Part shown: positions 5,889-40,918 of the stretch, piece after piece | Layout of the letters: each line of letters opens with the position of its first letter | Position numbering within the stretch: the first letter of the stretch is position 1 | DNA from: Halococcoides cellulosivorans | GTDB lineage: Archaea > Halobacteriota > Halobacteria > Halobacteriales > Haloarculaceae | DNA length: 64,000 nucleotides | NCBI RefSeq assembly: GCF_003058365.1 | Contig: NZ_CP028858.1 | Span: 186,001 to 250,000, forward strand | Reading direction: 5' to 3' | The notes under the pieces: generated by a model | The model's database searches: none | The model's input: only the letters and a program-made list of their open reading frames with translations | Told to the model about the DNA's origin: nothing | Translations under genes and position numbers: made by a program

Positions 5889-6092
5889 TACCTCTACAGT
5901 ATCGGCCAGTCGACGCAAATACTTTGTGAAGGGGTGGGGGCACGCTGGTGGTCGGTTGGGGACGCCGCTGGTGATCGGTCGTGGACGCCGTGGGGTTGGG
6001 ACCGTCGTGGACGGGTCGGGCCTCGTGGGGTCTGCTCCCGGCCGTGACGCCCGGGATCGATCTCGGCGCTGGACGCCCGAACCCGATCCTCA

Positions 6093-6102
6093 ACTTATAT
6101 GA
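6093..6102 (+). promoter_or_regulatory. TATA box for the dockerin/beta-helix gene
   Basis: 'acttatatga' lies about 33 bases before the ATG at 6131, an archaeal TATA position. It supports the downstream start rather than the earlier in-frame ATG at 5981. Confidence 0.6.
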
Positions 6103-6130
6103 GTCCGTCGTCAGAACCCCCGCTCAATGC

Positions 6131-13319: not shown

Positions 13320-14753
13320 TCACAGTTCGAGTGGCGTCTGATCGAAGACTTGATCGAGAAGTCGCCGTGCCTGCGTCCGTGCCGCGGCGGAGCCGACGAA
13401 GACGCCGGAACCGTACACTCCGACCCCGATGCCGACCAGAACGAGCGTTTCGACGTCGGTTACCGACTGGAACTGCCTTCGCAGGAGCGCGACCACGACC
13501 GCCATCGTGGCAGCACTCGCTACCTGGACGCCGATCGTCCGCCAGTCGACACCGAATCCGACGATTCGGTGGAGAATACGGCCCGCGAGGACGGTCCCGA
13601 GAAGCACAGTCACGGCCGTCGCGACCGCGGCTCCGATCGCCCCGAACTGCCAGGCCAGGACGACGTTGAGGGTAAGATTGACTGCGATGAACACGATCGA
13701 GATGCGGAATGTCGCGTCCGGGCGGTCGATCGCATTCAGCGACTGCATCAGGAACGTCTCGTAGGCCTGGCCGAGACGGCCGACCGCCAACACGGCCAGG
13801 ATCGTCGCGCCGGCGGTGAACTCCGGCCCGTAAATCGCGAGGATGTCTTCACCGAGAACGATCGCGCCGGCCACGCCAGGGATGGCGAACAGTCCGGCGA
13901 AGGTGGTCACCGTCGTGAGCGTACTCGCGATTTCGTCGGTCCGGCCCTCGGCCGCGTGGCGACTCAGGTACGGGAAGACGACCTTGCTCATCGCGGAGGG
14001 CAACAGGATGAACGCGGCGCTGATCCGCCACGAGATCTCGTAAACACCGATCGCGGAGTCTGCGACGAAAAAGCCCAGCACGAGGACGTCCATCCAGGAG
14101 TATGCATACGGCTTGATCGTCGTCAGCCAGGCGTACTTGCCGTAGTCGTACAGGTGTCGGAGGTGCTCTCTGGTCGGGCGGGCGATACCGAGCGAACTCA
14201 CTGCGAGGATCGCCACCGAGATGACTGCCGCCGCGGCGATCTCACCCACCAGCAGGCCGACCAGCTTGAACCCGGCGACGACGAGGACGACTTGCAGACC
14301 GATCCGGAGCAGTTCCCAGGCCCCGCCGACGAGCGCGGCGAGTTCGACTCTGTGTTCGCCACGAAGGATCGCCCTGAGAAACGTTCCGATGCCCTTGAAA
14401 ACGAACAGCGCAGCCACGAGCATGGTTCCCTGGAAGCCCAGGTAGGCGTCGACCCGCCCTCGAAAGAGCACGAGCACGGCGACGATCACTGCCAGCAGAG
14501 CAATCTGGAGGGTCGTGCCGGCCGTGAAGTACGCGTCCTGGTCGGTGTCCTCGCTGATGCGCTTCTGGGTCGTCCCCCGGATCCCCTTGGTCGGGATCAA
14601 CAGCCAGTTGACCAGTGCGAGTGCGAGAAAGTACTGTCCGAGCGTTCCCGATCCGAGCAATCGCGCGAAGTAGATCGTCGCGACGAAGCCCACCACCGTC
14701 TGGAGCATTTCGACGCCGAACTGCAGCGCCGAGGACCGAGCGAGTTTCGCCAT
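13320..14753 (-). CDS. Wzx-type oligosaccharide flippase
   Basis: 477 residues with about 12-14 transmembrane helices. The opening 'QFGVEMLQTVVGFVATIYFA' followed by 'RLLGSGTLGQYFLALALV' is characteristic of polysaccharide flippases of the MOP superfamily, and an internal 'VFPYLSRHAAEG' loop is also typical. These proteins move lipid-linked oligosaccharides to the outer face of the membrane. It is the last gene of a tight minus-strand operon (AP-superfamily enzyme, nucleotidyltransferase, kinase, flippase), with only one base between it and the kinase gene. The substrate is presumably the glycan built by the neighbouring glycosyltransferases. Confidence 0.93.
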   Translation of the reverse strand: MAKLARSSALQFGVEMLQTVVGFVATIYFARLLGSGTLGQYFLALALVNWLLIPTKGIRGTTQKRISEDTDQDAYFTAGTTLQIALLAVIVAVLVLFRGRVDAYLGFQGTMLVAALFVFKGIGTFLRAILRGEHRVELAALVGGAWELLRIGLQVVLVVAGFKLVGLLVGEIAAAAVISVAILAVSSLGIARPTREHLRHLYDYGKYAWLTTIKPYAYSWMDVLVLGFFVADSAIGVYEISWRISAAFILLPSAMSKVVFPYLSRHAAEGRTDEIASTLTTVTTFAGLFAIPGVAGAIVLGEDILAIYGPEFTAGATILAVLAVGRLGQAYETFLMQSLNAIDRPDATFRISIVFIAVNLTLNVVLAWQFGAIGAAVATAVTVLLGTVLAGRILHRIVGFGVDWRTIGVQVASAATMAVVVALLRRQFQSVTDVETLVLVGIGVGVYGSGVFVGSAAARTQARRLLDQVFDQTPLEL

Positions 14754-14754
14754 C

Positions 14755-15651
14755 TCAGCCCTCCAGATACGCCGCCCAGACCGTGTCGCGAATCCTCTCG
14801 TGAGTCTGGTCGATCGGCCGTGTCGTGTCGATCACGCGCGTCTGCTCGTTGGCGCACTCCTGGAATAGCTCTCGACGATCGCGGAGGTAGTCGATCGGGT
14901 CGGCGTCGATGTGGAGTCGATCGAGCATTTCGCCGGTGTCGTCTTTCCGGTCGGCGGCGACCTCGGCTGGCACGTCCATCAGGAAGGTCACGTCCGGCGT
15001 CGGCAACCACGAGTCGATCAGCGTCGCGGGACGCTCGCGGTAGAGCCCGTCGTAGTGGAGTTCGACGCACTGATCGAGGACGTAGCGATCGATGCAGACG
15101 ACTCGTCCCGATCGCAGGTGCGGGTAGATGTACCGGGCGAAAAACAGGAGGTGATCGATCAACAGGAAATACCCCCAGATCCGTCTCAGGACTGCGCTGC
15201 GGTGGTAGTCCTTACGTCGCCAGCCCAGCGTGACGTACAGCACGCCCATGAACGGATACGATAAAAAGGGCCGCCACCGCGCCCAGACGTGAGTCGCGTC
15301 GACGCCTGCCGCCTCGAACTCCGCGACGAGTCGCTCGGCCTGGGTCGTCTTGCCCGAGCCGTCGATGCCCGAAAAGCAGATCAGTGCGCCGCCGGTCCCG
15401 ACCGGTCCGACGCCGGCCTCTCGACGGGTGATCCCGACTAGATCACCGAGCGATAGCCGTCGCGTGCTGGGATATCGGAGCAGTTTGTAACTGATCGGGA
15501 CGACGGCGACGAGGCCGCCGAGACCACCGACTGCGAGGAGGGCCCCGAGGATCTCCCGTCCGAGTGCGCCGAGACCGATCGCACCGCCGATCACGGCGAG
15601 CGGTCCCGCGAGCAAAGTGAGTCCGATGGTCGCGTCGCGTCGTCGACTCAT
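14755..15651 (-). CDS. Membrane-anchored thymidylate-kinase-like P-loop kinase
   Basis: 298 residues. Residues 1-60 carry two hydrophobic helices ('TIGLTLLAGPLAVIGGAIGL' and 'LLAVGGLGGLVAVVPISYKL'). From about 95 the protein is thymidylate-kinase-like, with a P-loop 'FSGIDGSGKTTQAERLV', a 'DRYVLDQ' (DR) motif at about 185 and a lid-like 'ADRKDD' at about 240. It is much longer than a normal Tmk and lacks the usual dTMP-site context, so the substrate is probably a sugar or lipid intermediate rather than dTMP. It overlaps the upstream nucleotidyltransferase gene by 4 bases and is followed at once by the flippase gene. Confidence 0.85.
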   Translation of the reverse strand: MSRRRDATIGLTLLAGPLAVIGGAIGLGALGREILGALLAVGGLGGLVAVVPISYKLLRYPSTRRLSLGDLVGITRREAGVGPVGTGGALICFSGIDGSGKTTQAERLVAEFEAAGVDATHVWARWRPFLSYPFMGVLYVTLGWRRKDYHRSAVLRRIWGYFLLIDHLLFFARYIYPHLRSGRVVCIDRYVLDQCVELHYDGLYRERPATLIDSWLPTPDVTFLMDVPAEVAADRKDDTGEMLDRLHIDADPIDYLRDRRELFQECANEQTRVIDTTRPIDQTHERIRDTVWAAYLEG

Positions 15652-16652
15652 GCTTCCCCCAGGAGGACCTTCGAGGCGGCCGTCAGCCCGTGAGACTGGA
15701 AGTCTTTCAGCGTCTCGTGAGTCGTGCACTGTCTCGCGACGCGGGGGACGTGGTGGACTGCCGAGGCCATCGTCGGCAGCCAGGTCGGGAACACGACGGG
15801 GAACGATCGCGGCCGCGAGCGCTCGAACCACCGATCGACGAGCCGCGTGATCCACGATCGTGGGATGGCGTCGAACACTCGATCGGGCACTCCCCCGCGA
15901 CCGGTGGCCGTCAGATACTCGTCGAGAACGAGCAAGTAGGCGTAGAGTGCGTCGACACACCCGTACGAGCGGGCCGCCTCGATCGCGATCGCCCAGTCGA
16001 CCGATTCGGTGTCGACGATTGCGACGCCGTGGTAAAGTTCTGCGAACGTGATCGAGCAATGCGAGTAGGCGTGGGTCGCGACGAGATACAGGTCGTCGGC
16101 GGGGGCCGGCGTCCGCTGGCCGTCCGCGTTCGCGCGCTCGACGACCCGTTCGGCGTCGCAGACGACCTTTCGGATCCACATCGCGTCGGGGTAGATGTCG
16201 ACTGGCCGTGGATCTGCGGGTGAGCGCTTGGCCATGACCTTTCGTGGGTGCGCGAGCAGGCGAAAGCCGTAGAACTCGAACCCCTCCGCGGCGAGAACGC
16301 GGGCCGCGAGCGCCTGCTCGCGAGGGTCGGGGACGAGCAGGTCGACGTCGCTCATCGTCGCGCTGGGCGTCCGGAGGTTCTTCATCGAGGCGTACGCGAC
16401 GCCGGCGTCGTTCAACAGCTCGCAGACGTGCTGGAACCGCTCGCGGCGTTTCCGACGGTGGGCAGCCTGGTCGTCGGCCTCGTCCGGTGGCTCCGGAAGC
16501 AGTTCGAGTGAGAGTTTGTTCGCCCGGAGCACCTCTGCATCCGGTGGGTCGCCAACCCGATCGACCGCCGGGTCGACCAGGCCGGCGATCGCCGCCGATT
16601 CCGGCGCGTATCCCCTCTCTGCGAGCGTGGCGTCTCCAATCGTGTGCTCCAT
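15648..16652 (-). CDS. Nucleotidyltransferase-fold protein in glycan operon
   Basis: 334 residues starting 'MEHTIGDATLAERGYAPESA'. The centre (about 80-190) has the nucleotidyltransferase signature 'TMSDVDLLVPDP' with a preceding 'YASMKNLRTPS' and a later 'PVDIYPDAMW', similar to the uncharacterised nucleotidyltransferase family PF14907. The DxD pair is intact, so metal binding is likely; the substrate is unknown. It overlaps the kinase gene by 4 bases and lies 5 bases after the AP-superfamily gene, arguing for one transcript. The pairing with a P-loop kinase suggests transfer of a nucleotide or phosphate to a sugar or carrier (inference). Confidence 0.82.
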   Translation of the reverse strand: MEHTIGDATLAERGYAPESAAIAGLVDPAVDRVGDPPDAEVLRANKLSLELLPEPPDEADDQAAHRRKRRERFQHVCELLNDAGVAYASMKNLRTPSATMSDVDLLVPDPREQALAARVLAAEGFEFYGFRLLAHPRKVMAKRSPADPRPVDIYPDAMWIRKVVCDAERVVERANADGQRTPAPADDLYLVATHAYSHCSITFAELYHGVAIVDTESVDWAIAIEAARSYGCVDALYAYLLVLDEYLTATGRGGVPDRVFDAIPRSWITRLVDRWFERSRPRSFPVVFPTWLPTMASAVHHVPRVARQCTTHETLKDFQSHGLTAASKVLLGEA

Positions 16653-16657
16653 GGTGG

Positions 16658-18016
16658 TTACCGGTATCCGAGATCACGCAATCGCTGTTCCAGCTCTGCA
16701 TCGACGATCTCGCGATCGTCGGCACTGGCCTCGTGCTCGGTTCGGTGCGTCGATCGCCAGTCGTCGAGGCGGTCGGCCAGCCGCTCGGCCGTCTCTGGCG
16801 ACCGTTCGATCATGTTCTCGCGTTCCTCCGGATCCGAACGCAGATCGTACAGTTCTCGCTCGCCACCGTGGACGACGTGACACCCCTCGCAGACTGCCGA
16901 GTCACCGACCGTTTCGATGTACTTGTACCGGTCCGTCCGGATCGCAGCCTTGCGCTGGGTGTGGGCCTCTTCGACGATCACGGCGTCTCGTGTGGGGTCG
17001 CCGTCGCGGATCGTCCCGAGCAGGGAGTGCCCGTCGACGTCCGGGAGGGGATCGTCGAACAGAAAGTCACAGAGTGTCGGCGCGATGTCGACGTGCTGGA
17101 CGAACTCGTCGACCGTCCGGGCCGGCAGATCGGGGTGAGACAGAATCATCGGGACGTGGATCGTCGCGTCGTAGAGTCCGTGATGATCGAAATAGATCCC
17201 GTGTTCACCGAACGACTCGCCGTGATCGCCCAGCACAACGTACAGCGTCGGCCGGTCCGTCGCTTCGTCGACCCTTTCGTCGAGGCGACGGAGTTGCTCG
17301 TCGACGAATCGGACGGCCCCGACGTACCGGTCGTACGGGTCGTCCGGGTCGCCCTGCACGTACTCGTCTGGCACCTCGTAGGGGGCGTGCGTGTCCCAGA
17401 AGTGAACGAAGGTGTACGTCGGTGACGTTCCGGTCTCGACGGCGTCGATCGCTGCGTCGACGACGTCGTCTGCGGAATCCGGAAGCCACCCACCAGCCTG
17501 GACGCTCGGTTCCGACACCTGGAAGTATGCCCGACGGAACACACTCACGAGACTCGGTGGGGCCCTATCGAGAGACCATTCGAGCAGTGCCGACGGCACA
17601 GACCGCCGTCTACCACCCGATCGGTCGCGGTCCCGTTGGTCGGTCGACTCGTCGAGTTTGCCGCTGTACTGGTCGTACCCCGATTCGTGCCAGTTGCCGA
17701 GCCAGTCGATCGCGCTGGTCTCGTAGCCCTGCGCTCGGAACCGTTCCTGGAGAAAGGGTAGGTCGTCCAGAACCTCAATATCGCGTTCCGTGAGGTTCGT
17801 TCCGTGATTGTAGACGCCCGAAGTCGCCGGATACGTGCCAGAGTACAGCGACGCCAGCAGCGGTTCGGTCGCGTTGATCGGTGAAAACGCCCGCTCGAAC
17901 TCGACGCCACTCACGGCGAGGTTCGTCATCCAGGGGGCAGTCTCCGCTGTGACTACGTCCGGCCTGAGTGCGTCGACGACGACCACCACCACGTTCGGCG
18001 TTTGAGTTTGGTCCAT
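16658..18016 (-). CDS. Sulfatase/alkaline-phosphatase superfamily enzyme, Thr type (1 of 4)
   Basis: 452 residues from the ATG at 18016 ('MDQTQTPNVVVVVVDALRPD'); an ATG at 18076 would add 20 residues. Metal ligands are visible as D15 ('VVDAL') and 'LGDHGESFGEHG'. The nucleophile position reads 'NATEPLLASLYSGTYP', with Thr50 where sulfatases have the Cys or Ser that becomes formylglycine. The protein is thus more likely a phosphodiesterase or phosphotransferase-like member (LtaS and EptA also use Thr) than a sulfatase. There is no signal peptide. The protein ends LRDLGYR, a tail shared with the other three copies. It is the first gene of the operon that ends with the flippase. Confidence 0.88.
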   Translation of the reverse strand: MDQTQTPNVVVVVVDALRPDVVTAETAPWMTNLAVSGVEFERAFSPINATEPLLASLYSGTYPATSGVYNHGTNLTERDIEVLDDLPFLQERFRAQGYETSAIDWLGNWHESGYDQYSGKLDESTDQRDRDRSGGRRRSVPSALLEWSLDRAPPSLVSVFRRAYFQVSEPSVQAGGWLPDSADDVVDAAIDAVETGTSPTYTFVHFWDTHAPYEVPDEYVQGDPDDPYDRYVGAVRFVDEQLRRLDERVDEATDRPTLYVVLGDHGESFGEHGIYFDHHGLYDATIHVPMILSHPDLPARTVDEFVQHVDIAPTLCDFLFDDPLPDVDGHSLLGTIRDGDPTRDAVIVEEAHTQRKAAIRTDRYKYIETVGDSAVCEGCHVVHGGERELYDLRSDPEERENMIERSPETAERLADRLDDWRSTHRTEHEASADDREIVDAELEQRLRDLGYR

Positions 18017-18210
18017 GTATCGAACGAACTGTCGCGATACCGATTCGTAGTCTGTCGGTTTGTGGATGTCCTGCATAACGATTTCGACTGCCGAACGGCG
18101 ACACCTCCCGACCGGTCGTCCTCGGTTCCCACCCAGACCGGTGACGACGGTGTCGCTGCGAGGCGTGATCTCTCATAGCTTTCAAGACCGCCGCCCGCTA
18201 TGGCCGGTAT

Positions 18211-19638
18211 ATGCCGGTCTGGCGCACTCTCGACCGCCTCGCTGATCGATGGGGGGCCGTCCTCGTCGGAACTGCTCTCTTTTTCCATCTCTTGCCGATC
18301 GTTTTCAACGCTGGCCTGCCACCGATCGACGGTGACTCGGCACTCTTTCAGTACATGGGGTGGTCCATGACTCAGGGGGGATTGCCATACGTCGACATCT
18401 GGGATCTCAAACCGCCCCTGATATACTATGTCACGGCTGGCCTCGGGGCGCTCACACGCGGGAACGTCCACGTCTTGCACCTTGCAGGGGTTTCGTTGAC
18501 GACCGCCACGGCGGTCGGATCCGTCCTTGCCCTCGGCACGATCACCCATCGCCAGACTGGTGATCGGAAACTGGCTCTCGCGGCCGGTCTTTCTCTCCTT
18601 TCGCTCCCGGCGTTCTATCAAATTCCACTCGGTGGGGTCCGACCGAAATACTTCGCACTGCTGTTTGGATTGGTTGGCCTCTATCTGATCCTCGAAGAGC
18701 ACCCGGGACTCGCCGGCGCGTCTACGGCCATCGCGGCGGGGTTCTGGCACTGGGCGGCGATATACCCGCTGCTCGCGGTCGCCATCGCGATCCTACGGTC
18801 GAGACGTCAGGCACTCTGGGTCGTCGCCAGCGGGCTGGTCGTCACGATTCTCGTCCTCGTCCCGTTCGCGGTCCGCGGGGCGCTGGACACGATGATCGCT
18901 GAAGTGGTCCTCACGATGCTTCTCGTCGGATCGGAGTCGCAATTCGTCGGCATACGCGTGGTGAAACTGTTCGTGGTGTACGGATACGGCTCGATCGTCG
19001 TCCCGCTGGGCGTGCTCGGTGCAGCGATGACGCTCACACGGCGCTACAGACGGGACTGGTGGATTGCGGCCGGGACTGGGTGGTTCCTCGTCCAGATCCT
19101 CGTCGTCGATTTCGACTGGCGAGCCGACCTCCTTCACCTGGCGGCGTTTTTCGCGCTGGGAATCGGTGTCCTGGGATCCCACCGCGACCTGTGGCGTCGA
19201 CTCTCGGATCGGCTTGTTGATGCGGTCTCTGGTCGGTCGAGTGCTCGATTTCTCGTCGCTGGTCTCGACCGGCACAGTGGGCCATCGATCGTCCTCGGGG
19301 TGGCCATTCTGGCCGCGCTCGCTGGTCCGGTGTGGGCCGGTGGGATGGAACTCGTCGTGGACGTTCTGCCCCTCGGTCCGATCGAGCCGTGGATTCCGCA
19401 CAAGGCACCTGTCGTCGATCTGTTCCGGACGCTGACCAGGGGGTCTGCGACGGTCGAACCACCACCTCGGTATGGGCTGCCCGATCTTCAGGACCTGTTC
19501 CTTTCGAAGTCCTCGGTACCGGAGTGTCACGTTCGTCTCTCTACGACGGAACGGAATCTCATGGAGGCACTCGAGGTCACTCACGAAACGACGCCCTGTG
19601 GCGACTTCGATCGGTACTGGGAGGCTCTGGTGGGGTGA
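18211..19638 (+). CDS. GT-C fold integral membrane glycosyltransferase (GT39/PMT-like)
   Basis: 475 residues with about 9-11 transmembrane helices. The first external loop carries the acidic motif region 'PIDGDSALFQYMGWSMTQGG', then 'PYVDIWDLKPPLIYY', characteristic of ArnT/PMT-type GT-C enzymes that use polyprenyl-phosphate sugars on the outer face of the membrane. The C-terminal about 80 residues form an external domain ('PPPRYGLPDLQDLF', two Cys near the end). It is transcribed divergently from the AP-superfamily enzyme and precedes the FkbM methyltransferase gene by 94 bases. Confidence 0.87.
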   Translation: MPVWRTLDRLADRWGAVLVGTALFFHLLPIVFNAGLPPIDGDSALFQYMGWSMTQGGLPYVDIWDLKPPLIYYVTAGLGALTRGNVHVLHLAGVSLTTATAVGSVLALGTITHRQTGDRKLALAAGLSLLSLPAFYQIPLGGVRPKYFALLFGLVGLYLILEEHPGLAGASTAIAAGFWHWAAIYPLLAVAIAILRSRRQALWVVASGLVVTILVLVPFAVRGALDTMIAEVVLTMLLVGSESQFVGIRVVKLFVVYGYGSIVVPLGVLGAAMTLTRRYRRDWWIAAGTGWFLVQILVVDFDWRADLLHLAAFFALGIGVLGSHRDLWRRLSDRLVDAVSGRSSARFLVAGLDRHSGPSIVLGVAILAALAGPVWAGGMELVVDVLPLGPIEPWIPHKAPVVDLFRTLTRGSATVEPPPRYGLPDLQDLFLSKSSVPECHVRLSTTERNLMEALEVTHETTPCGDFDRYWEALVG

Positions 19639-19732
19639 GGCCCGATCGACGGTCGCGGTCGATTTGTACCGTCGATCGCGGGTCGATCTGCCGAGAGGTG
19701 AATATTTGGGGCAGTGGCGTTGAGTGCAGGCC

Positions 19733-20470
19733 ATGACGAACGTGTTCCGGAAACTCGGTGTCGCCGCCGACGCGATCCGACTCGCGATTCATGGTCCCAT
19801 CTACACGGCTACGCTCGACGATCGATCCGCGTCCTTCCTCGTGACGACGCCACGAGAGTATCATCACGCCCGACGGTTCACGGGCGAACGAGAGATCCTC
19901 CGCACCTTTCTCGACACGATCGAGAGTGACGATCACGTCCTCGACGTCGGTGCCAACGTCGGGGTGTTTTCGGTCTTTGCGCTCGCGGCGCTCGATTCCG
20001 GCCGAGTCACCGCCGTCGAGCCACACCCACCGACGGCGGTTCGTCTCCGGACGAATCTGGCCCAGAACGGACCGGAGTCGTCCTGGACGGTGCGAAATCA
20101 CGCACTCGGGGCCGAGGATACGACGGCCGGGTTCCACCTCGAAAACGATATGAGCGGGTTCCCTTCGAATCACCTCGCGAGTGACGGCGAGACGACCGTC
20201 ACCGTTCGGCGGGCGGCGACACTCATCGACGAGGACGAAATCACCGTTCCCGATGTCGTAAAAATCGATGTCGAAGGGGCCGAAGGGAGCGTTCTCGACG
20301 GCTTCGGGGAATTCCTCTCTGAGGTACGATCGGCGTTCGTCGAGGTGCATCCGACCGCTGGCGTCTCCACCGAGTCGATCGAGTCCCGACTCCAGGCGGC
20401 GGGGTTGACGATCACCGAACGGACGGTTGCCGAGAACGAGAACACGCCGATGCTCGTCGCGGAACGGTGA
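19733..20470 (+). CDS. FkbM-family methyltransferase
   Basis: 245 residues from the ATG at 19733 ('MTNVFRKLGVAADAIRLAIH'). The SAM-binding motif 'DHVLDVGANVGVFSVFALAA' and post-I acidic loop 'VTAVEPHPPTAVRL' are clear, followed by 'VVKIDVEGAEGSVLDGF', the hallmark of FkbM methyltransferases. In glycan loci such enzymes usually O-methylate a sugar hydroxyl. The position between a GT-C enzyme and an AP-superfamily enzyme supports that role. A GTG three codons earlier (19724) is an alternative start. Confidence 0.93.
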   Translation: MTNVFRKLGVAADAIRLAIHGPIYTATLDDRSASFLVTTPREYHHARRFTGEREILRTFLDTIESDDHVLDVGANVGVFSVFALAALDSGRVTAVEPHPPTAVRLRTNLAQNGPESSWTVRNHALGAEDTTAGFHLENDMSGFPSNHLASDGETTVTVRRAATLIDEDEITVPDVVKIDVEGAEGSVLDGFGEFLSEVRSAFVEVHPTAGVSTESIESRLQAAGLTITERTVAENENTPMLVAER

Positions 20471-20695
20471 TAGCCGGACTGTCGTGAATTGGGGGCCGTC
20501 TGTCGAGATCATCGGATCCCGACGGCTGACAGTCTCCGTCGTGTTTGGTGATGATGTGGTACCGTCGGATCGACGTATACCCCGGCCATCGAATGGTGCG
20601 ATTCCCCGATCGATATGACTCTCCAGGCCTCTGGCGAGTCGACCCGAATACGGCCGACAATCTTTTGGTCGAGACAAGCTTTAAATCGTCTATTC

Positions 20696-22012: not shown

Positions 22013-22151
22013 ACATCTCCCGAGTGGTGAGTTATTTTCTGCATACAATTTATCAACTGCCAATTCACCATTTAATTTAATACACCTCCGTCACCATATT
22101 TGTTACTTTATCGGACAGTAGCTTTTTACCTGAATGCTGTGGGTATCCCCT

Positions 22152-23144: not shown

Positions 23145-24529
23145 TGAACGTCGCCATCATCGTCATGGACTCGGTGCGGGCAGCCGACGTCGACGAGACG
23201 ACGATGCCGACTCTGTCGTCGATGACGTCCCGAACTGCGCTCGCACCTAGCAGTTGGACGCTCCCGACGCACGCATCGCTGTACTCGCTGAAATCTCCGA
23301 TCGCCCACGAGACGACTCGTCCGACCGACCGCCTCACGGATCACGCGTTCGTCGACGCCATCCGGGCGGCGGGGTTCACTGTCGGCGGGTTCTCGGAAAA
23401 TCCGTATTTTAGCGCCCGGTTTGGGTTCGCAGAACCGATCGATTATTTCGACGACGACATCCATCACAAACCTCGGCGGTCTGGGTACTCGTTCAAGCGC
23501 CTGGTCGAACGAGAGCCGTCTCGGCCGAAACGATACGTTCGTGCCGCCCACCACCTGCTCCACTCGAACGAGCGTGTCGCAGACCTCCACAACGGCATTC
23601 GCTTCGTCCGGGGGACGGACGATCGTCGTCGGCAGTTCTACGGTGACCGTGTCCTCTCTCACGCTCGTGACTGGCTCTCGACCGGATCGGAGGACAGCGT
23701 CGCCATCATCAATCTCCTCGACGCACACCAGCCACACGTCCCGACGAAATACAGCGATGCTCTCGGCTACGACTTTTCTGAGCCAGAAATCCGTGCTCTC
23801 GATCGCTTCGATGGCATGGAGTTTCTTTCGGGACAACGGATCGATGATTGTGACCATCTCGCACCGTTCGACACCTGGGACGAACTGTTCGAGCGACTCC
23901 ACGCCGCCTATCGAACGCAAATCAGATACCTCGACGACATCGTCTCCGAGTTCATCCGCTCTTGCGACGACGTCGTCCCGATCGTCACGAGTGACCATGG
24001 CCAGATGCTCGGTGAGGAGGGGTGGTTCGACCATCACGGCGTCCTCCACCCGAAGGCAGTCGAAGTCCCCTTTTTTGTGGGGGAAGGTGCCGAGTCCGAA
24101 CTGACCGGGGAGACGGTTCACGGACTCGTTGCCGAGGTGTTCGCTCATCTGACAGATGGGGTGACTCCGGTAATCGGATCGGGTGAGACGCTCGTCGCAT
24201 CGGACGGCATCGCCCGACAAGTAGACTCAGGGTGGACGCTCGATGAGGGTCCAACGAGTCGCCTTTCGACCGATGATCTGCTCTGTCGGCGGGTCGCTCG
24301 TCCTTCGGACTCGCTCACGACCATCTTCGAGTCTCCATGGTCGAGTTCCGAAATCCACGTCAAACAGTACGAACGCTCCGGAGAGGCCGGCCGACAGTTG
24401 GTCGACCGCTGTCCGTACGATGGCCAACTTGAGGCGTCCGTGGCCTCGTGGCTCCGGGCCAGTCCCGAGGCCTACGGATCGATCGATTCGACCACCGCCG
24501 ACCGACTGGATCGGTTGGGATACCTATGA
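23144..24529 (+). CDS. Sulfatase/alkaline-phosphatase superfamily enzyme, Thr type (3 of 4)
   Basis: 461 residues starting 'MNVAIIVMDSVRAADVDETT', with the first metal Asp at D9. The nucleophile region is 'SSWTLPTHASLYSLKSP', giving Thr39 at the usual Cys/Ser site and losing the 'TG' that normally follows. The second metal site 'TSDHGQMLGEEGWFDHHG' is intact. The protein ends LDRLGYL. It starts one base before the end of the beta-helix gene and overlaps the following GT2 gene by 4 bases, so these three form one operon. It is probably a phospho-group transferase or hydrolase acting on the glycan made here (inference). Confidence 0.87.
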   Translation: MNVAIIVMDSVRAADVDETTMPTLSSMTSRTALAPSSWTLPTHASLYSLKSPIAHETTRPTDRLTDHAFVDAIRAAGFTVGGFSENPYFSARFGFAEPIDYFDDDIHHKPRRSGYSFKRLVEREPSRPKRYVRAAHHLLHSNERVADLHNGIRFVRGTDDRRRQFYGDRVLSHARDWLSTGSEDSVAIINLLDAHQPHVPTKYSDALGYDFSEPEIRALDRFDGMEFLSGQRIDDCDHLAPFDTWDELFERLHAAYRTQIRYLDDIVSEFIRSCDDVVPIVTSDHGQMLGEEGWFDHHGVLHPKAVEVPFFVGEGAESELTGETVHGLVAEVFAHLTDGVTPVIGSGETLVASDGIARQVDSGWTLDEGPTSRLSTDDLLCRRVARPSDSLTTIFESPWSSSEIHVKQYERSGEAGRQLVDRCPYDGQLEASVASWLRASPEAYGSIDSTTADRLDRLGYL

Positions 24530-25314
24530 GTGCCGTCTCAGTGATCATTCCCACGCTGGACGAGGCGGACTACATCGAAGAGTCACTCGACGCCACGCTG
24601 GCACAGACCGTTTCGGACATCGAAGTGATCGTCGTCGATGGCGGCTCTACCGACGGAACGTGCGAAATCGTTGCCGATCATCCCGATGATCGTATAATAC
24701 TTCAGGAGAACGGCGATATCGTCGATTCTCTGAATGTCGGGCTGGAGAAAGCGAGCGGTCGATTCGTCGCTCGTGTGGACGCGGACGCCGTGCCCGACCC
24801 AACCCGGTTCGAGCGGCAGATCGAACTTCTGGAGCGGAATCCGTCGGTCGGTCTCGTCGGGTGTTTCCTTCGGAAGAAAGATCCCGATACCGGGGCGACG
24901 ACGCTCCAACGAGAGCCCGTCGAGTCGGCTGCGATCCGCCGACGACTGCCGTTGCACAATCCGATTCCCCACTCGACGTGGATGGTCAGACGAGAGGTGT
25001 ACGAGACAGTCGGGCGGTATCGGTCGTATCGCTGGGAGGACTACGAACTGCTGAGCCGAGTGATTCAGCAGTACGAAGTCCGAAATCTGGACGCGGCTCT
25101 GGTCACCGAATACGATCGGCCTGATAGCATTATCGAAACGACGCCGACCTGGCGGGCCATCCTGGCGAGCGCCGTCTGCGGACTTCTCGTCACTGCGCGC
25201 GGTTCTTTCAGTTTTATTGATCGGATACTCTTCGGGCTCCGGATCGGGGTCCTTGCCGGTCGTCGGTTCGCGCGGATCCCCGTCCACACACTTTCGGGCC
25301 TCGTGCCCCGGTGA
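24526..25314 (+). CDS. Family 2 glycosyltransferase
   Basis: 262 residues from the ATG at 24526 ('MSAVSVIIPTLDEADYIEES'). The GT-A fold motifs are present: 'VDGGSTDGTCEIVADH', 'ASGRFVARVDADAVPDPTRF' (nucleotide-sugar DxD) and 'YRWEDYELLSR' (acceptor-side acidic ED). A single hydrophobic stretch near 210-235 may associate it with the membrane. The gene is translationally coupled (4-base overlap) to the AP-superfamily gene and is the last of the beta-helix - phosphotransferase-like - GT2 operon. Donor and acceptor cannot be read from sequence. Confidence 0.92.
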   Translation: MSAVSVIIPTLDEADYIEESLDATLAQTVSDIEVIVVDGGSTDGTCEIVADHPDDRIILQENGDIVDSLNVGLEKASGRFVARVDADAVPDPTRFERQIELLERNPSVGLVGCFLRKKDPDTGATTLQREPVESAAIRRRLPLHNPIPHSTWMVRREVYETVGRYRSYRWEDYELLSRVIQQYEVRNLDAALVTEYDRPDSIIETTPTWRAILASAVCGLLVTARGSFSFIDRILFGLRIGVLAGRRFARIPVHTLSGLVPR

Positions 25315-25332
25315 CTGGCGGTCTCGTGACTG

Positions 25333-26700
25333 TCACTCGATATACCCGAGTTGGTCGAGGTTCTGTTCGACGGTCTCGGAGAGATCGTCCCGATCCGCGG
25401 AGAGTGACGCCCGTCCGGCCCCGAGGTCGACCGACTGCAGTTCCGCCTCGTGGTCTCGGAGCGCGTCGACGAGCCGGTCGTGAACCTCGGGGTGATCGTC
25501 GCTGACGTCCTCGCCCTCCGAACCCATGTGAGCGACGCGGTACAGCGCGGGCGAGCCCTGTTCTGGCTCGACGTACTTCCATGGGCCTTCGCGGATCCCG
25601 ACTGCTTCGGTGTCGTCACCGTCCACACAGAAGAAGACTGGAGCGTCACTTTCCCGGTCGAGATCGATCAGTGAATCGCCCGCCATCGAATCGGGAGCGT
25701 CGATCCCAGCGGCTTCGAGTAGCGTCGGCGCGATGTCGAGATGCTGGACGGGATACTCGTCGACCCGACCAGGCTCCAGTCCCGGTGCGCGGACGATGAT
25801 CGGGACCTGTGTGAGTGAGCTGTAAACCGGTCCGGCGTGGAAGGGGGCGTACCGCCCGAACGACTCGCCGTGGTCGGCTGTGATTGCCACGACCGTCCCG
25901 TCGCCCACAGTGTCCAAGAGCCGTCCGACCTGCTCGTCGGCGCTCCTGACGCCGGCGTCGTAGGCGTCGATCGCCGCCTGTGGTGGCTCCTCTCCGACGG
26001 TGATCTGGTCGTGTGGACGGACGACGTGTTCGACGTCGGTGTCGCCACGGATCGCCTCAAGGTGGTCGTCCCACCGCGAGTACGGTGTGTGGGCGTCCAT
26101 GAGGTGAACCCACGTGAAATGGGGGTCGCCGTCGGCCTGGCGCTGGGCAATCCAGTCGCATGCGGCGTCGACGACATCGCGATCGGTCACCGCCTCACGG
26201 TACCCGTCCTCCGTCCCGTCACTCTCGGCCGAGCGCAACGTCTCGACGAGTGGCTCGTAGACGTACTGGCGGAGCACTCGACTGTCGAGGTGACGGTCGA
26301 CCTGATCTCCGAGTCGCTTGATCAGCGGTTTGGTGGCGGCGAACTCGGCCACACCGTCGTACCGGTCGAACCCCTGGTGGTAGTTGTACTCCCGGGACAC
26401 GAAGCCGTTGTTCGCGAAGCCACCAGTCGCCCACCCCGCGGCCTGAAACCGCTCTGCGAGCGTCGTTGCGCCCTCCGGGATCCCGAGTCCGTCGATAGCG
26501 TGCGGGCAGTAGCCGGTGTGCAGCGCCTGCATCGCCCACCGTGTGTGTGCGGCGTTCGCGTAGCTGTGTTCGAACAGTGTTGCATCGGCAGCGAACCGAT
26601 CGATGGCGGGCGTCGTCGGACGGTCGTAGCCGTAACAGCCGGTATGATCGGCACGGAGGCAGTCGACCGTGACGAACAGGACGGAGCGCGTGTCGGTCAT
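25333..26700 (-). CDS. Sulfatase/alkaline-phosphatase superfamily enzyme, Thr type, most divergent (4 of 4)
   Basis: 455 residues starting 'MTDTRSVLFVTVDCLRADHT', with the first metal Asp at D13. The nucleophile region is 'NAAHTRWAMQALHTGYCP': Thr53 aligns with the sulfatase Cys, but the Pro and the Arg/His-Ala-Ser that follow it in other members are replaced. The second metal site 'TADHGESFGRYAPFHAG' is shortened. The protein ends LDQLGYIE. Its own promoter, with 'accatatatcaa' on the minus strand (26724-26735), is well placed. It converges on the GT2 gene. Function is presumably related to the other three, but the altered active site may change the substrate. Confidence 0.87.
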   Translation of the reverse strand: MTDTRSVLFVTVDCLRADHTGCYGYDRPTTPAIDRFAADATLFEHSYANAAHTRWAMQALHTGYCPHAIDGLGIPEGATTLAERFQAAGWATGGFANNGFVSREYNYHQGFDRYDGVAEFAATKPLIKRLGDQVDRHLDSRVLRQYVYEPLVETLRSAESDGTEDGYREAVTDRDVVDAACDWIAQRQADGDPHFTWVHLMDAHTPYSRWDDHLEAIRGDTDVEHVVRPHDQITVGEEPPQAAIDAYDAGVRSADEQVGRLLDTVGDGTVVAITADHGESFGRYAPFHAGPVYSSLTQVPIIVRAPGLEPGRVDEYPVQHLDIAPTLLEAAGIDAPDSMAGDSLIDLDRESDAPVFFCVDGDDTEAVGIREGPWKYVEPEQGSPALYRVAHMGSEGEDVSDDHPEVHDRLVDALRDHEAELQSVDLGAGRASLSADRDDLSETVEQNLDQLGYIE

Positions 26701-26723
26701 CCCGTGGGGGTATCACGTCTGGG

Positions 26724-26735
26724 TTGATATATGGT
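26724..26735 (-). promoter_or_regulatory. TATA box for AP-superfamily gene 4
   Basis: On the minus strand 'accatatatcaa' is centred about 29 bases before the ATG at 26700. This separates the gene from the glycosyltransferase operon upstream. Confidence 0.65.
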
Positions 26736-26757
26736 GCTGGCCGGACTCGATCCGTGC

Positions 26758-27789
26758 TCACTGCACCGCCTCGACGTAGCCTGCGACGCCGTCAGCGAAC
26801 AGTTCTCGCACGGTGACGTCCGCCAGCGCGTCGGCCAGAAGCGATCGTCGGCGTTCTTTCAGCACGGAGGGGTGGACGCGCTGGCCACCGGCGGCGAACG
26901 CGTACAGTGAGAGGTGATACTCCGATGGGTCGAGTTCCATGTCCGTCCCGGTCGCGATTCGAGCGGTCGCGGCGTCTGTCGCGAGCGTTCGATCGTCGAC
27001 TGTCCGACCGCCGTTCAGCACGAACACCCGATCGATGGGCGCGTGGTCGACCACGCGGTCGGCCACGGCGTCGGGGACGACGTTTTCCGAGAGGTCGATC
27101 GAGAAGGCGTGCAAGAGCGCAGCGGAGAGCAGTTCCGAGCGCGCGATCCACCGCTTGAGTCTGACGCGCCGTCGAGTCCCCGCGGGTAACTGATCGTCTT
27201 CGACGGCCGTCCCCGGAAAGACGCCCAGCGTCGCCGGCCAACTGTAGACTGCTCCGTCGTCGTCCACGAGGAGGACGTTGTCGCCCATGAACCCCAGTTC
27301 GGCCGACTCGCGAAGCAACGTTAGAATGGTCGAGGTCTTGCCCATTCGCCCCATCGAGGTCAACACCGTCGCGCGTCCGTCTTCGTCGACGACTGCGCCC
27401 GCGTGAATCAGTGCGACGCCAGCGTCGAGCAGCGCGGTCGTGAGCACGCCCTCGACGATGTCGTCGATCCCCGACTGGTCCCGAAAGGCCGGCGTGAACA
27501 CGACCCGTGTCCGATCGGTTCCGAGGCCCCCAATCCGGACGGCGACGGGCGATCGTGTCGGTGTCGAGGGGTACCGGACGGTCACGGTGTCGTCGTCGAC
27601 CCAAAAGCGGTGACTCGCCAGTCGGCGCGCTCTCGCCGGTGGTGTCGGTGACCAGTCCGGTCGGCGTTCGATCTCGACGACGTGGTCGGCGTCGCCCGAC
27701 CCGCCAGTGAAGGCCTCGGGAATCGGTACGTCGGCGTTCGTCCGGACGGTCACGAAATCGTGGATGTGGTAGGTCTCAGTCGCGTGCAT
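26758..27789 (-). CDS. HPr-kinase-like P-loop protein in glycan cluster
   Basis: 343 residues starting 'MHATETYHIHDFVTVRTNAD'. After an N-terminal beta-rich domain (1-115), residues about 118-300 resemble the C-terminal kinase domain of HPr kinase/phosphorylase: 'GVALIHAGAVVDEDGRATVL', then a P-loop variant 'TSMGRMGKTSTIL' (first Gly replaced by Ser), and 'GFMGDNVLLVDDDG'. HPr itself is not expected in this context; similar stand-alone HPrK-like proteins occur in glycan and peptide-modification clusters. It overlaps the upstream GT4 gene by 14 bases and is the last gene of that operon. A role in phosphorylating a sugar or carrier is inference. Confidence 0.82.
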   Translation of the reverse strand: MHATETYHIHDFVTVRTNADVPIPEAFTGGSGDADHVVEIERRPDWSPTPPARARRLASHRFWVDDDTVTVRYPSTPTRSPVAVRIGGLGTDRTRVVFTPAFRDQSGIDDIVEGVLTTALLDAGVALIHAGAVVDEDGRATVLTSMGRMGKTSTILTLLRESAELGFMGDNVLLVDDDGAVYSWPATLGVFPGTAVEDDQLPAGTRRRVRLKRWIARSELLSAALLHAFSIDLSENVVPDAVADRVVDHAPIDRVFVLNGGRTVDDRTLATDAATARIATGTDMELDPSEYHLSLYAFAAGGQRVHPSVLKERRRSLLADALADVTVRELFADGVAGYVEAVQ

Positions 27790-28939
27790 GGGTCTGGGCG
27801 ATCTCGTAAATCTCGACGAGGCGGTCGGCGACCGCCGACGGACTGTACTGTTCGTGGATCGTCCGGCGGGCGGCCCTCCCGAGGCGATCGCACGCGTCGG
27901 GGTCTGCCCGCAGCGCCCGCAGTCGCTCGACGATCGGGTCGGGCACCCCGGGCGTCACGAGAAAGCCGTTCTCCCCGTCCGTGACGGCATCGGCCATCGA
28001 GAGCGTGTCGCTCGCGATGACTGGCCGCCCGGTCGCCATCGCTTCGAGCACCGTGAGTGGTGGATCGATCACTGGCGTGCGCTCGACGCCCAACTCACGG
28101 AACGGGAACGTCCAGACGTCGGCGGCGGCGTACGCCGCGCGCTTCTCGGTGTCGGTCAGGTGACCCGTGTGGACGGTGAGGTTGTCGAGGTCACGAACGT
28201 CGCGATCCTCGATCTGTTTGGTGACGACGAACAGTTCGACGCCCTCGTCGGCGGCGAATGCGTCGAGTGCCGCTGCGACCTCGAACGGAAATCGGGCTTC
28301 GTTCACGTTCCCGAAATAGCCCGCGACGAAGGCGTCCTCGGGGAGACCGAACTGCGCTCGCGCGGTCGATCGGTCGACACCACCGAACCGGTCGAGAAAG
28401 ACCGGTGGATCGAGACTGTGGCAGTTCGATGACGGAACGCCCATCGCTTCGAGCGCCTCCAGGTCGGCGTCGGTCGTCGAGACGTAGGCGTCGATACGAC
28501 TGGGGGTGTCGAGTGCGTTCAGCAGTCGACCGTGTTCGACGCCACCGAACGTCTGGGCGACCACGGCTGCGTCGCCCACGAGGTCGTTCACCAGTGCGAA
28601 CAGGCTGTGACTCGCAAAGCCCAGATGAACCACGTCGGGGTCCTCACGGGCGAGATGTCGGCCGACACGCCAGGCCAGTCTGGCGAACATCACGGCGTCT
28701 CGATTGTAGCGATACCCACCGAGGGCCGCGACCAGATCTCCGAGGCGGGATTCGCGCGCGTACGACATCTCGAACTCGGGACTGGGCTCGTCGCCCGGTC
28801 TGATCGTCGAGATGCCTCGGACGTCGAGGGCGGCGTGATCGGTGAGCGCTCGCATCTGGTCGCGGGTCAGCACCCGAGTCCCTTCGCTCCACGGCGGGTG
28901 GAGGCCGTAGCCGACGACGCACACCTCCGAGAGACTCAT
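27776..28939 (-). CDS. GT4-type glycosyltransferase
   Basis: 387 residues starting 'MSLSEVCVVGYGLHPPWSEG'. The C-terminal GT-B half is clear: 'DAFVAGYFGNVNEARFPFEV', 'VYAAADVWTFPF'-like text read as 'AYAAADVWTFPFRELG', and 'PLTVLEAMATGRPVIASDTL' followed by the donor-binding 'DGENGFLVTPG'. The N-terminal half has 'EGTRVLTRDQMRAL' instead of the usual Gly-rich loop, so it is a divergent member. It overlaps both neighbours (14 bases with the HPrK-like gene, 4 bases with the nucleotidyltransferase-like gene), so it is in the middle of a four-gene operon. Confidence 0.9.
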   Translation of the reverse strand: MSLSEVCVVGYGLHPPWSEGTRVLTRDQMRALTDHAALDVRGISTIRPGDEPSPEFEMSYARESRLGDLVAALGGYRYNRDAVMFARLAWRVGRHLAREDPDVVHLGFASHSLFALVNDLVGDAAVVAQTFGGVEHGRLLNALDTPSRIDAYVSTTDADLEALEAMGVPSSNCHSLDPPVFLDRFGGVDRSTARAQFGLPEDAFVAGYFGNVNEARFPFEVAAALDAFAADEGVELFVVTKQIEDRDVRDLDNLTVHTGHLTDTEKRAAYAAADVWTFPFRELGVERTPVIDPPLTVLEAMATGRPVIASDTLSMADAVTDGENGFLVTPGVPDPIVERLRALRADPDACDRLGRAARRTIHEQYSPSAVADRLVEIYEIAQTHARD

Positions 28940-30129
28940 CGGACGAGGCGGGTCTTGAGCCCGAACAGCGCCCCCATCACGCGCATGTATCGGGCGCGCA
29001 TCGGGTGATACTTGTAGGCGGCCATCGACGCGTCGCGCTGTCGTTTCGACCGGTCGCGATTCTGCAGGGCCCTCCGGTACGCCTCGGGTGCACTCACCGT
29101 GTCGCCGTCGCGAAGGCGTTCGTTGACCGTCACGGACTGAGGCAACACGGCGGTTCTGACCCGCCCATCGCGGTAGTACTCGCAGGTGTCACGCTCGGCC
29201 GTCTCGACCGACCAGTCCGGGCGGAACTCGTTGTGCGTCGTCTCGTGAGAGTGGACCGTCAGTTCGGTCTCCGGGACCTCGACACCGATCTCGTCAAGGT
29301 AGGCGTCGAGATGGTCGACGAACGCGAAACAGGCGGTGATGGCGTCCTGCAGGCGTTCGATCAGCAGTGTCTCACGCTCCGCCCGGTCCAGATCGAACCA
29401 TCGCTCCCGGAGGTCGGTGATCGAGGCGTCGAAGGCGTCCATCACCGGCGTGTCCCGTCCAGTACTGTCGGCAAACAGCATCATATCGTTGCGCAGGGAG
29501 TTGAGCCGGTGGACCGCAAAGCGGGTATCGAGATCGACGGGGAACCGCTCGGCAACCACTCCCGGGACGGCCAGATCGAACGCGTCACCGAAGACGATAT
29601 CGAGGCGGTGGTGATCGATCGATGGGCCCGGGAAGAAGAGGAGTTCGAGAAACTCCATCGGGTAGGTCGTCGTCACCGAGTCGACCAGGTACGCGAGGTA
29701 GTTGAATCGATCGCGGTTTTTCTCGTATTCGAGTGACTCGCCGTAGTGGAGGACGAGGTCTTTCGGCATCGGGAGCACGTTGTAGTACTCGGGAAACGCC
29801 GATCGAGTGATGACCTCGGGACCGTGGAAAAAGTAGTATTCGTCGGTCTTCGCGGCCGAAATCCCCTCACGAACTGCGGTCGGATCGTCGATTTCGTCCT
29901 CGACCACGACGATCAGGTCGACGTCCGAGATTCCTGGCCGGGAGACCTCTCCAGTCCCCGATTCGTAGACGGAGACGACGCCCGAGACGCTGGCGATCCG
30001 ATCGAGAAACGTGTCGCGAGCGTCCGCGTAGGCTTCCGGGGGCTCGTATCGGGGGTGATCGTAGAACGCGTAGTTCAGATCGGACGATGCGTCCTGCACG
30101 GCCGCAGAGGCGATGCGATCTTCAGTCAT
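28936..30129 (-). CDS. Nucleotidyltransferase-fold protein (second type)
   Basis: 397 residues from the ATG at 30129 ('MTEDRIASAAVQDASSDLNY'). The nucleotidyltransferase motif appears as 'GTGEVSRPGISDVDLIVVVE' (Gly-Ser-like loop, then DxD) at about residues 57-76. The long helical C-terminal portion (about 200-330) and the basic tail ending 'YMRVMGALFGLKTRLVR' are not typical of known families. It is not similar in sequence to the other NTase-fold protein at 15648-16652 outside the motif. It overlaps the flanking GT4 genes by 4 bases on both sides, so all are co-translated. Function is not known; it may transfer a nucleotide or phosphoryl group to a glycan intermediate. Confidence 0.8.
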   Translation of the reverse strand: MTEDRIASAAVQDASSDLNYAFYDHPRYEPPEAYADARDTFLDRIASVSGVVSVYESGTGEVSRPGISDVDLIVVVEDEIDDPTAVREGISAAKTDEYYFFHGPEVITRSAFPEYYNVLPMPKDLVLHYGESLEYEKNRDRFNYLAYLVDSVTTTYPMEFLELLFFPGPSIDHHRLDIVFGDAFDLAVPGVVAERFPVDLDTRFAVHRLNSLRNDMMLFADSTGRDTPVMDAFDASITDLRERWFDLDRAERETLLIERLQDAITACFAFVDHLDAYLDEIGVEVPETELTVHSHETTHNEFRPDWSVETAERDTCEYYRDGRVRTAVLPQSVTVNERLRDGDTVSAPEAYRRALQNRDRSKRQRDASMAAYKYHPMRARYMRVMGALFGLKTRLVR

Positions 30130-31298
30130 TCTGACCACTCTTCGAACCGATCGAACAGTCGATCGACGATTCGATCCCACGTGAACTGCTCTTCGATGCG
30201 CTGTCGGAGTGCGGGCCCGGTGTCGGCGTCGAATCCGTCGGCCATCGCGTCGGCGAGGCCCTCTGGGTCACCCGGCTCTGCGTAGATGCCGAGGTCACCG
30301 AGAACGTCGGGGGCTCCCGCGACGTCGGTCGCGACGACGGTCGATCCACTGGCTGCCGCTTCGAGGACGTTGATCGGACAGCCTTCCGAGTAGGCCGCCG
30401 AGACCGCGACGTCACAGGTCTCGAACCAGCCGAGCAGTTCCTCGCGGGGGACCCGCCCCGTCAGCGTCACCACATCCTCGACGCCGAGTTCCTGGATCCG
30501 CGTTTCGAGATAGTCGGCATAGCCCGAGTGGCCGTGGCCACCGACGTGGACGATGTGGGCCTCGGCGTCTCGCTCGCGAAGCGCCGGTGCGGCGTCGACC
30601 AGCGTGTGGACTCCCTTTCGGGGGATCGCACTGCCGACCGAGACCGCCACGGTGGCGTCCTCCAGGCCGTACGACTCACGAACGTTCTCTGCGGGGGTTT
30701 CACGATCGAACTCCGTGAGGTCCACGCCGTTGGGGATGGCGACCACTCGGTCCGGATCGATCCCCATCTCTTCGAGTTCGGGGACCGCCCGCTCGGCGAC
30801 CGTGTGGACGTGATCGGCAAAGCGGGTGCCGTACTTCTGGATCAGGTGGTCGAGGTAGACACCCGTGCAGTATTTCCACTTTCGGTCGAACGAGGGGTAC
30901 TCCCGGAACGACCGAATCTCGTTGAGATAGGTCCCGTGCGCGGTTTCGACGAGTGGTGTGTCGACCTTTCCCAGGAGATCCGCGAGCACGGGTAACGTGA
31001 TGTAGTTGCCGTGCATGTGGATCAGATCGAAATCGTGGGCCTCGTCCAGTTCCGACAGCGTCGGGAGTGCCCGGACTGCGAACGCGAAGATGTTCAGCGG
31101 GAAGAGTCGGTCCGAGCGCCGGACCGTCCTGATTTCGACCTCGTCCGAGAGTTCGGGCCGAACGTCATCTTCGTGCTCCTGATCGGTGATCACCCAGTTC
31201 TCGACCCCGCGATCGTCGAGTTCGGCAACGATGTTTCGGGCGACGTACGGCACCCCGCCGTGCCGGTTGAACGCCGGTGCGACCGTACAGACCTTCAC
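30126..31298 (-). CDS. GT4-type glycosyltransferase
   Basis: 390 residues starting 'MKVCTVAPAFNRHGGVPYVA', with the acceptor-side Gly-rich loop 'RHGGVPYVARNI'. The C-terminal donor domain shows 'VAVSVGSAIPRKGVHTLVDA', 'VTLTGRVPREELLGWFETCD' and the EX7E-type motif 'YSEGCPINVLEAAASGSTVV'. It is the first gene of the operon running GT4 - NTase-like - GT4 - HPrK-like. A TATA-like patch is seen on the minus strand near 31321-31330. It is a typical cytoplasmic retaining glycosyltransferase; the sugar is unknown. Confidence 0.94.
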   Translation of the reverse strand: MKVCTVAPAFNRHGGVPYVARNIVAELDDRGVENWVITDQEHEDDVRPELSDEVEIRTVRRSDRLFPLNIFAFAVRALPTLSELDEAHDFDLIHMHGNYITLPVLADLLGKVDTPLVETAHGTYLNEIRSFREYPSFDRKWKYCTGVYLDHLIQKYGTRFADHVHTVAERAVPELEEMGIDPDRVVAIPNGVDLTEFDRETPAENVRESYGLEDATVAVSVGSAIPRKGVHTLVDAAPALRERDAEAHIVHVGGHGHSGYADYLETRIQELGVEDVVTLTGRVPREELLGWFETCDVAVSAAYSEGCPINVLEAAASGSTVVATDVAGAPDVLGDLGIYAEPGDPEGLADAMADGFDADTGPALRQRIEEQFTWDRIVDRLFDRFEEWSE

Positions 31299-40867: not shown

Positions 40868-40918
40868 GGAGGTCAAATCCCGGAACACTCTTTGTCGTCA
40901 CGCGCCTTAGATGAGCCA

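Follow-up and report, generated by a model that had tools for sequence, protein, structure and literature searches.

The window analysed here is a 64,000-nucleotide stretch of Halococcoides cellulosivorans DNA, corresponding to 186–250 kb of the 2.72 Mb haloarchaeal chromosome. Between its positions 13320 and 31298 is a surface-glycan assembly locus in which the gene for a membrane-anchored Tmk-like kinase overlaps by 4 bp the gene for NT5, a nucleotidyltransferase (NTase) of family PF14907. These two components are linked, and in some genomes fused, in archaeal glycan loci, and this is a solid result: the NT5-Tmk unit is present in nine genomes, in four of them as a fusion. The fusion into a single protein in distant archaea suggests that the kinase and NT5 act together, and we propose, as a tentative reading, that the unit performs a phosphorylate-then-glycosylate step on an exported glycan, giving a phosphodiester. 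An earlier note on this DNA had not recognised the pathway as one already described in haloarchaea, and literature searches on PF14907, on NTP_transf_5 and on archaeal Tmk in combination with NTase and flippase returned no description of the Tmk-PF14907 pair.

The NT5-Tmk unit

NT5 matches PF14907 at 31.8 bits, marginally over the curated cut-off of 31.2, and contains a Polbeta-type acidic triad (DxD plus a third Asp; D102, D104 and D152) that is invariant in the window and in two haloarchaeal relatives, G068 and G109. An NTase fold is established for this protein. The kinase resembles dTMP kinases (Tmk) in its PF02223 match (E 1.1e-19; 71.2 bits against a curated cut-off of 27) and in its retention of the P-loop GIDGSGKTT and of DRY, but differs from them in several respects. 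First, two transmembrane (TM)-like segments (residues 9–27 and 34–52) precede the PF02223 domain, in agreement with the membrane anchor described previously. Second, the protein misses the dTMP kinase profile TIGR00041 (57.5 bits against a curated 83.25). Third, the thymidylate-binding REP and SR.AYQ signatures, each found in every one of the four canonical Tmk proteins compared from haloarchaea, are absent from the aligned Tmk-like proteins of the window and G068. Finally, a canonical tmk is encoded elsewhere in the same genome, and the locus kinase is an extra copy. A longer listed frame (14755–16725) is simply an upstream extension of the Tmk-like gene.

Distant copies of the unit were reached by profile search over the phylum. 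Among glycosyltransferase genes, Tmk-like and NT5 are adjacent in G068, G042, G476 and G318 and fused, in both domain orders, in four further genomes. G298 encodes a 586-aa protein in which a PF14907-like domain follows a Tmk-like one, and nearby are several GT4 genes and split copies of the two domains; G377 has Tmk followed by PF14907 within one open frame, scoring 36.6 and 56.1 bits, both above the Pfam cut-offs. The order is reversed in G472 and G479, where the PF14907 part, at 25.9 and 18.8 bits, falls short of the 31.2-bit cut-off. Among the Tmk-linked NT5 relatives as a whole, those of G042 (44.9 bits), G318 (35.9) and G377 exceed this cut-off and the others (18.8–28.4) fall below it. 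A GT4 gene related to gt4a of the window is directly upstream of the fusion in both G472 (131 bits) and G479 (155 bits), and the gene order in G472 is gt4a-like gene, NT5-Tmk fusion, Wzx. The alignment also reveals motifs, SYPxM..LY..GWRRKDYH and DGLY, common to the window kinase and the fusion kinases of G472 and G479. Searches of plasmids by tblastn yielded no matches to NT5 and only ordinary Tmk-like matches to tmk, one of them in a glycosyltransferase cluster of a Herpetosiphon plasmid; profile scans of genome contigs with the NT5 alignment and with that of NT2, a second putative NTase of the window, found no relatives.

Organization of the locus

The locus consists of two minus-strand operons flanking plus-strand genes:

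13320–14753, minus strand: Wzx/MurJ-type flippase, last gene of operon 1 (PF13440, E 2.4e-15; PF03023, E 3.9e-15)
14755–15651, minus strand: membrane-anchored Tmk-like kinase, 298 aa (PF02223, two N-terminal TM-like segments)
15648–16652, minus strand: NT5, PF14907 nucleotidyltransferase
16658–18076, minus strand: sulfatase-superfamily protein A, soluble, Thr70 at the nucleophile site (TEP; PF00884, E 2e-34)
18211–19638, plus strand: AglS-like protein of the dolichyl phosphate (DolP)-mannose mannosyltransferase family (PF15971, E 2.8e-29)
19724–20470, plus strand: FkbM-type methyltransferase (PF05050, E 1.8e-16)
20615–22012, plus strand: sulfatase-superfamily protein B, Thr at the nucleophile site (TSP; PF00884, E 5e-17)
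22215–23144, plus strand: right-handed beta-helix protein (PF13229, E 1.7e-14)
23144–24529, plus strand: sulfatase-superfamily protein C, Thr at the nucleophile site (TLP; PF00884, E 2.4e-11)
24526–25314, plus strand: GT2 glycosyltransferase (PF00535, E 2.5e-29)
25333–26700, minus strand: sulfatase-superfamily protein D, Thr at the nucleophile site (TRW; PF00884, E 4.7e-40)
26758–27789, minus strand: HPrK-like P-loop protein (conserved His, Lys and Asp, second Asp replaced by Asn171; 13-sequence alignment)
27776–28939, minus strand: GT4 glycosyltransferase gt4a (PF13692, E 1.9e-16)
28936–30129, minus strand: NT2, putative NTase-fold protein (motif only, no Pfam match)
30126–31298, minus strand: GT4 glycosyltransferase gt4b (PF13692, E 1.4e-27)

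Operon 1 is transcribed in the order A, NT5, Tmk-like kinase, Wzx, with a 5 bp gap between A and NT5 and a 1 bp gap between tmk and wzx. Operon 2 reads gt4b, NT2, gt4a, HPrK-like, D, with overlaps of 4 bp (gt4b/NT2), 4 bp (NT2/gt4a) and 14 bp (gt4a/hprk). The flippase, glycosyltransferase and kinase genes reported earlier are all present at their positions, and both these identities and the overlapping arrangement are confirmed, by Pfam matches and by the overlaps of 4–14 bp. Assignment to glycan assembly also holds, given the AglS-like Mannosyl_trans4, Wzx, GT2 and GT4 genes, and the locus, at 0.2 Mb on the chromosome, is separate from the aglB region at 2.14 Mb. Beyond it come more GT2 and GT4 genes, to 36.7 kb of the window, and positions 40892–42745 encode a GT2 protein with an LPG_synthase_TM region. 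Upstream, a 1019-aa frame (5981–9040) has a beta-helix match (PF13229).

The HPrK-like protein and NT2

The HPrK-like protein has no Pfam match and misses the cut-offs of PF07475, TIGR00679, TIGR04352 and TIGR04355 (the best being TIGR04355, with 13.4 bits against 200). Although no profile cut-off is reached, the earlier description of it as an HPrK-like P-loop protein is in keeping with H129, K151 and D170, which do not vary among 13 relatives. At the position of the second catalytic Asp, the proteins of the window and G068, and only these, have Asn171.

Two unrelated NTase-fold proteins had been claimed for the locus. Their lack of relationship stands, with profile comparison of NT2 and NT5 showing none, and so does the fold of NT5. 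NT2 is the less certain member; it carries an NTase-like motif, GTGEVSRPGISDVDL, compared with hG[GS]x(7-13)Dh[DE]h, and has no Pfam match. Its AlphaFold model is unusable (predicted local distance difference test score, pLDDT, 45), and a sequence search of the PDB with NT2 and the HPrK-like protein gave chance matches only. A remote NT2 homologue in G434 has a clearer motif, GS-x7-DxD. In that region of G434 (L124 8797–10904), the gene for this homologue shares overlaps with those of a Polbeta-type NTase and of Wzx, and NeuB and a cytidylyltransferase are encoded close by; the homologue is possibly part of a second NTase pair in a glycan locus.

Conservation in haloarchaeal relatives

Of the 242 genomes of the class, three match NT5 (its own, G068 and G109), two match NT2 (its own and G068) and 18 match the HPrK-like protein, whose three strongest matches fall in the three NT5-bearing genomes. 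The closest relative, G068, keeps wzx-tmk-NT5 and hprk-gt4a-NT2-gt4b at 65–85% identity (wzx 65%, L020 5505–6920; gt4b 85%), and the HPrK-like orthologues are 80% identical in G068 and 25% in G109. The kinase and NTase genes of G068 are intact, but protein A is a 74-residue remnant (L020 8845–9135), B is split by a DDE transposase between its pieces (L020 11056–14948), C and D were not found, and a PF01663 phosphodiesterase gene lies ahead of hprk. In G109, genes for two PF01663 phosphodiesterases, an HPrK-like protein, NT5, a GT4 and a Wzx-like piece are all next to aglB. G042, from another family, has within about 20 kb sulfatase-like genes, HPrK-like and Wzx genes, and NT5 adjoining a Tmk-like gene; its glycan locus also encodes, beside a sulfatase-like gene, a 579-aa protein with a weak match to APH phosphotransferases (L035 2016–3755; E 4.5e-5). 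Other HPrK-like relatives are near glycosyltransferase genes in G102, G107 and G212 and in unrelated surroundings elsewhere. The proposed linkage of alkaline phosphatase (AP)-superfamily genes to the kinases and NTases is thus seen in part, with such genes nearby in G068, G109 (as PF01663) and G042 (as sulfatase-like genes); in the Tmk-NT5 loci outside the haloarchaea, the stretches read contained no PF00884-like gene.

The broken sulfatase genes and the transposase of G068 raise the question of whether this is a hypervariable glycan island, in which kinase-, NTase- and sulfatase-like genes accumulate without forming a single pathway. GC content falls to 0.58 over the stretch from sulfatase B to C, and Thr-type sulfatase-like genes are widespread in haloarchaea, both as expected of such an island. 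Nonetheless, recurrence of the NT5-Tmk unit in nine genomes, with four fusions, and the coincidence of NT5 and the strongest HPrK-like matches in the same three of 242 genomes make this explanation unlikely.

The Thr-type sulfatase-superfamily proteins

Proteins A, B, C and D all match PF00884, and in the alignment each has Thr at the nucleophile column and keeps the conserved Asp, DHG and His, as had been reported. What finds no support is the interpretation of these Thr-type enzymes as the diagnostic element of the locus. First, about 87 sulfatase-like proteins were collected from loci of haloarchaea, a set that takes in A to D and includes a few doubtful rows; the nucleophile residue is Thr in 63 of them, Ser in 14 and Cys in 10. 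Thr is therefore the norm among haloarchaeal PF00884 proteins (~72%), and since four of four has p ~0.27 at the sampled rate of ~63/87, its occurrence here is no more than expected by chance; we reject it as a locus-specific signal. Second, LtaS and EptA are membrane enzymes, whereas none of the four proteins has a TM-like segment or a multi-span membrane domain. Third, all four score below every curated LtaS/EptA cut-off, and the closest solved relatives of protein A by sequence are S1 sulfatases (its AlphaFold model is of low confidence, pLDDT 47). The four share with LtaS and EptA the Thr nucleophile and the AP-superfamily metal-ligand residues, but membership of those families is rejected. 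Nor do they have the Cys or Ser in C/S-x-P-S/A-R that is turned into formylglycine in S1 sulfatases, all four having Thr.

Unexpectedly, 61 of 67 Thr-type and 14 of 14 Ser-type proteins, but 0 of 10 Cys-type proteins, end in a C-terminal L..LGY tail (Fisher p 1e-9, which overstates independence because the compared sequences are related). In the form L..LGY(I/L/R/K) it marks the Thr- and Ser-types together (75/81) and was noted for proteins A to D of the window as well as for L022 8054–9619 and 13763–15562; two PF01663 phosphodiesterases share an L..LGY-type ending.

PF14907 and HPrK kinases in lasso-peptide-type clusters

PF14907 proteins accompany HPrK-type kinases in another context. HPr kinase, PqqD and an 'uncharacterized nucleotidyltransferase' co-occur in lasso clusters (PMC7533575). 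According to a review of lasso-peptide tailoring, the C-terminal Ser is phosphorylated by PadeK and PsmK, and PsmN, annotated as a nucleotidyltransferase, is responsible for one or two hexoses on the phosphorylated Ser of the bacterial lasso peptide pseudomycoidin (PMC9266682). We read 16 strong haloarchaeal PF14907 loci outside the genome of the window. All have NT5 and ATP-binding cassette (ABC) exporter matches (the latter weak in two), 15 have HPrK and PqqD (L053 does not), 14 have the B2 peptidase (missing in L055 as well), and 10 have AsnSyn; the strong PF14907 locus of the window's own genome has NT5 and PqqD only. Lasso-peptide-type clusters with AsnSyn, B2, PqqD, HPrK, PF14907 and an ABC exporter are common in haloarchaea (L040–L055) and occur in another family of the phylum (L126), and several adjoin sulfatase-like and flippase genes.

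It could be argued from these clusters that the HPrK-like protein and NT5 modify a ribosomal peptide or a protein Ser and that the glycan setting is incidental. We regard this as very improbable, since AsnSyn (C), B2 peptidase, PqqD (B1) and the ABC exporter have no match in the window and NT5 is paired with a Tmk-like kinase; identity of the locus as a lasso-peptide cluster is rejected on the same grounds.

Proposed role of the unit

The simplest shared logic would be for the kinase to act first and its PF14907 partner second, on the phosphate just added; where glycan genes are accompanied by a flippase, this order would be expected to join a sugar through a phosphodiester to a lipid-linked glycan. 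In such a scheme the glycosyltransferases would build the lipid-linked glycan, with the AglS-like enzyme possibly contributing a hexose carried on DolP. Anchored in the membrane by its two N-terminal helices, the Tmk-like kinase would phosphorylate a hydroxyl of the glycan-lipid, or a sugar precursor, instead of dTMP; NT5 would then use the new phosphate to attach a sugar, or a nucleotidyl group first, to give a phosphodiester-linked substituent before Wzx flips the product. The HPrK-like protein and NT2 may form a further kinase/NTase pair with the same logic, and the Thr-type proteins could be cytosolic tailoring or editing enzymes acting on phosphate (or sulfate) esters and exchangeable between strains. 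We infer the substrates, the order of steps and the phosphodiester product in part by analogy with the PsmK/PsmN precedent and the 15 of 16 loci that combine HPrK with PF14907. The product is still best read as a phosphate-containing polymer, a reading that depends on the kinase-NTase pairs and not on the AP-superfamily enzymes.

An explanation nearly as simple is that the unit serves sugar activation. The kinase would phosphorylate a nucleotide or, more typically for such routes, a sugar or alditol, and NT5 would nucleotidylate the product to supply a nucleoside diphosphate (NDP)-sugar to the GT4 enzymes of the locus. Routes of sugar activation usually combine a kinase with a nucleotidyltransferase, in some cases as a fusion (Fkp and HddA/HddC are examples), the unit adjoins GT4 genes, and a small nucleotide is the normal substrate of Tmk. 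However, NDP-sugar-forming enzymes are normally of GT-A-type fold, unlike PF14907 with its Polbeta-type acidic triad, and the two TM-like segments of the window kinase suggest that its substrate is in the membrane. The reported PsmK/PsmN case, moreover, acts on a phosphorylated acceptor (PMC9266682). Overall we consider sugar activation somewhat unlikely.

Several observations weigh against our proposal of a phosphorylate-then-glycosylate step. First, the kinase may just as well act on a free sugar or a nucleotide. Second, PsmN is a putative PF14907 member only by our own, unconfirmed reading. Third, the grouping of the window kinase with the fusion kinases is weakly supported in the tree (68/87), though the shared motif is clear. 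Fourth, DxD is degenerate (DLN) in the NT5 of G042, so not every copy need be catalytic. Fifth, judged from sequence, the HPrK-like protein of the window may be inactive as a kinase, given Asn171, and the NTase fold of NT2 is only likely, on the basis of its motif. Sixth, phosphate in the products of NT5-Tmk loci is a prediction by analogy. Finally, whether PsmN is itself a glycosyltransferase or a nucleotidyltransferase was left open (PMC9266682).

A broader proposal, possible but doubtful, is that the Tmk-like and PF14907 proteins, a single fused polypeptide in some archaea, would constitute a bifunctional enzyme, so far undescribed, that works in the assembly of archaeal surface glycans and installs phosphodiester-linked sugars on lipid-linked glycans. 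PF14907 proteins in general would then act on what a partner kinase has produced, this kinase being of HPrK type where peptides are modified and of Tmk type where glycans are. Pfam continues to list PF14907 as an uncharacterised nucleotidyltransferase, and its pairing or fusion with kinases in archaeal glycan loci and haloarchaeal lasso-type clusters offers a concrete, testable function. Phosphate in archaeal surface glycans would be predicted; we know of no description of it for haloarchaea.

Comparison with known systems

Two further described systems, besides Tmk and LtaS/EptA, are close to this locus. The first comprises PsmK/PsmN of pseudomycoidin and PadeK of paeninodin, which it resembles in pairing a kinase with an annotated nucleotidyltransferase; of the His-Lys-Asp-Asp motif found in lasso kinases, the HPrK-like protein of the window retains all but the second Asp. 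It differs in that the window is without lasso genes, the kinase adjoining NT5 is Tmk-like, and the setting is one of flippase and glycosyltransferase genes. The second is the Agl loci, with which it shares the AglS-like Mannosyl_trans4, Wzx, GT2 and GT4 genes, and the G109 relative adjoins aglB. In contrast to the Agl loci, the window locus is far from aglB and contains kinase/NTase pairs, which to our knowledge are not part of the described Agl pathways.

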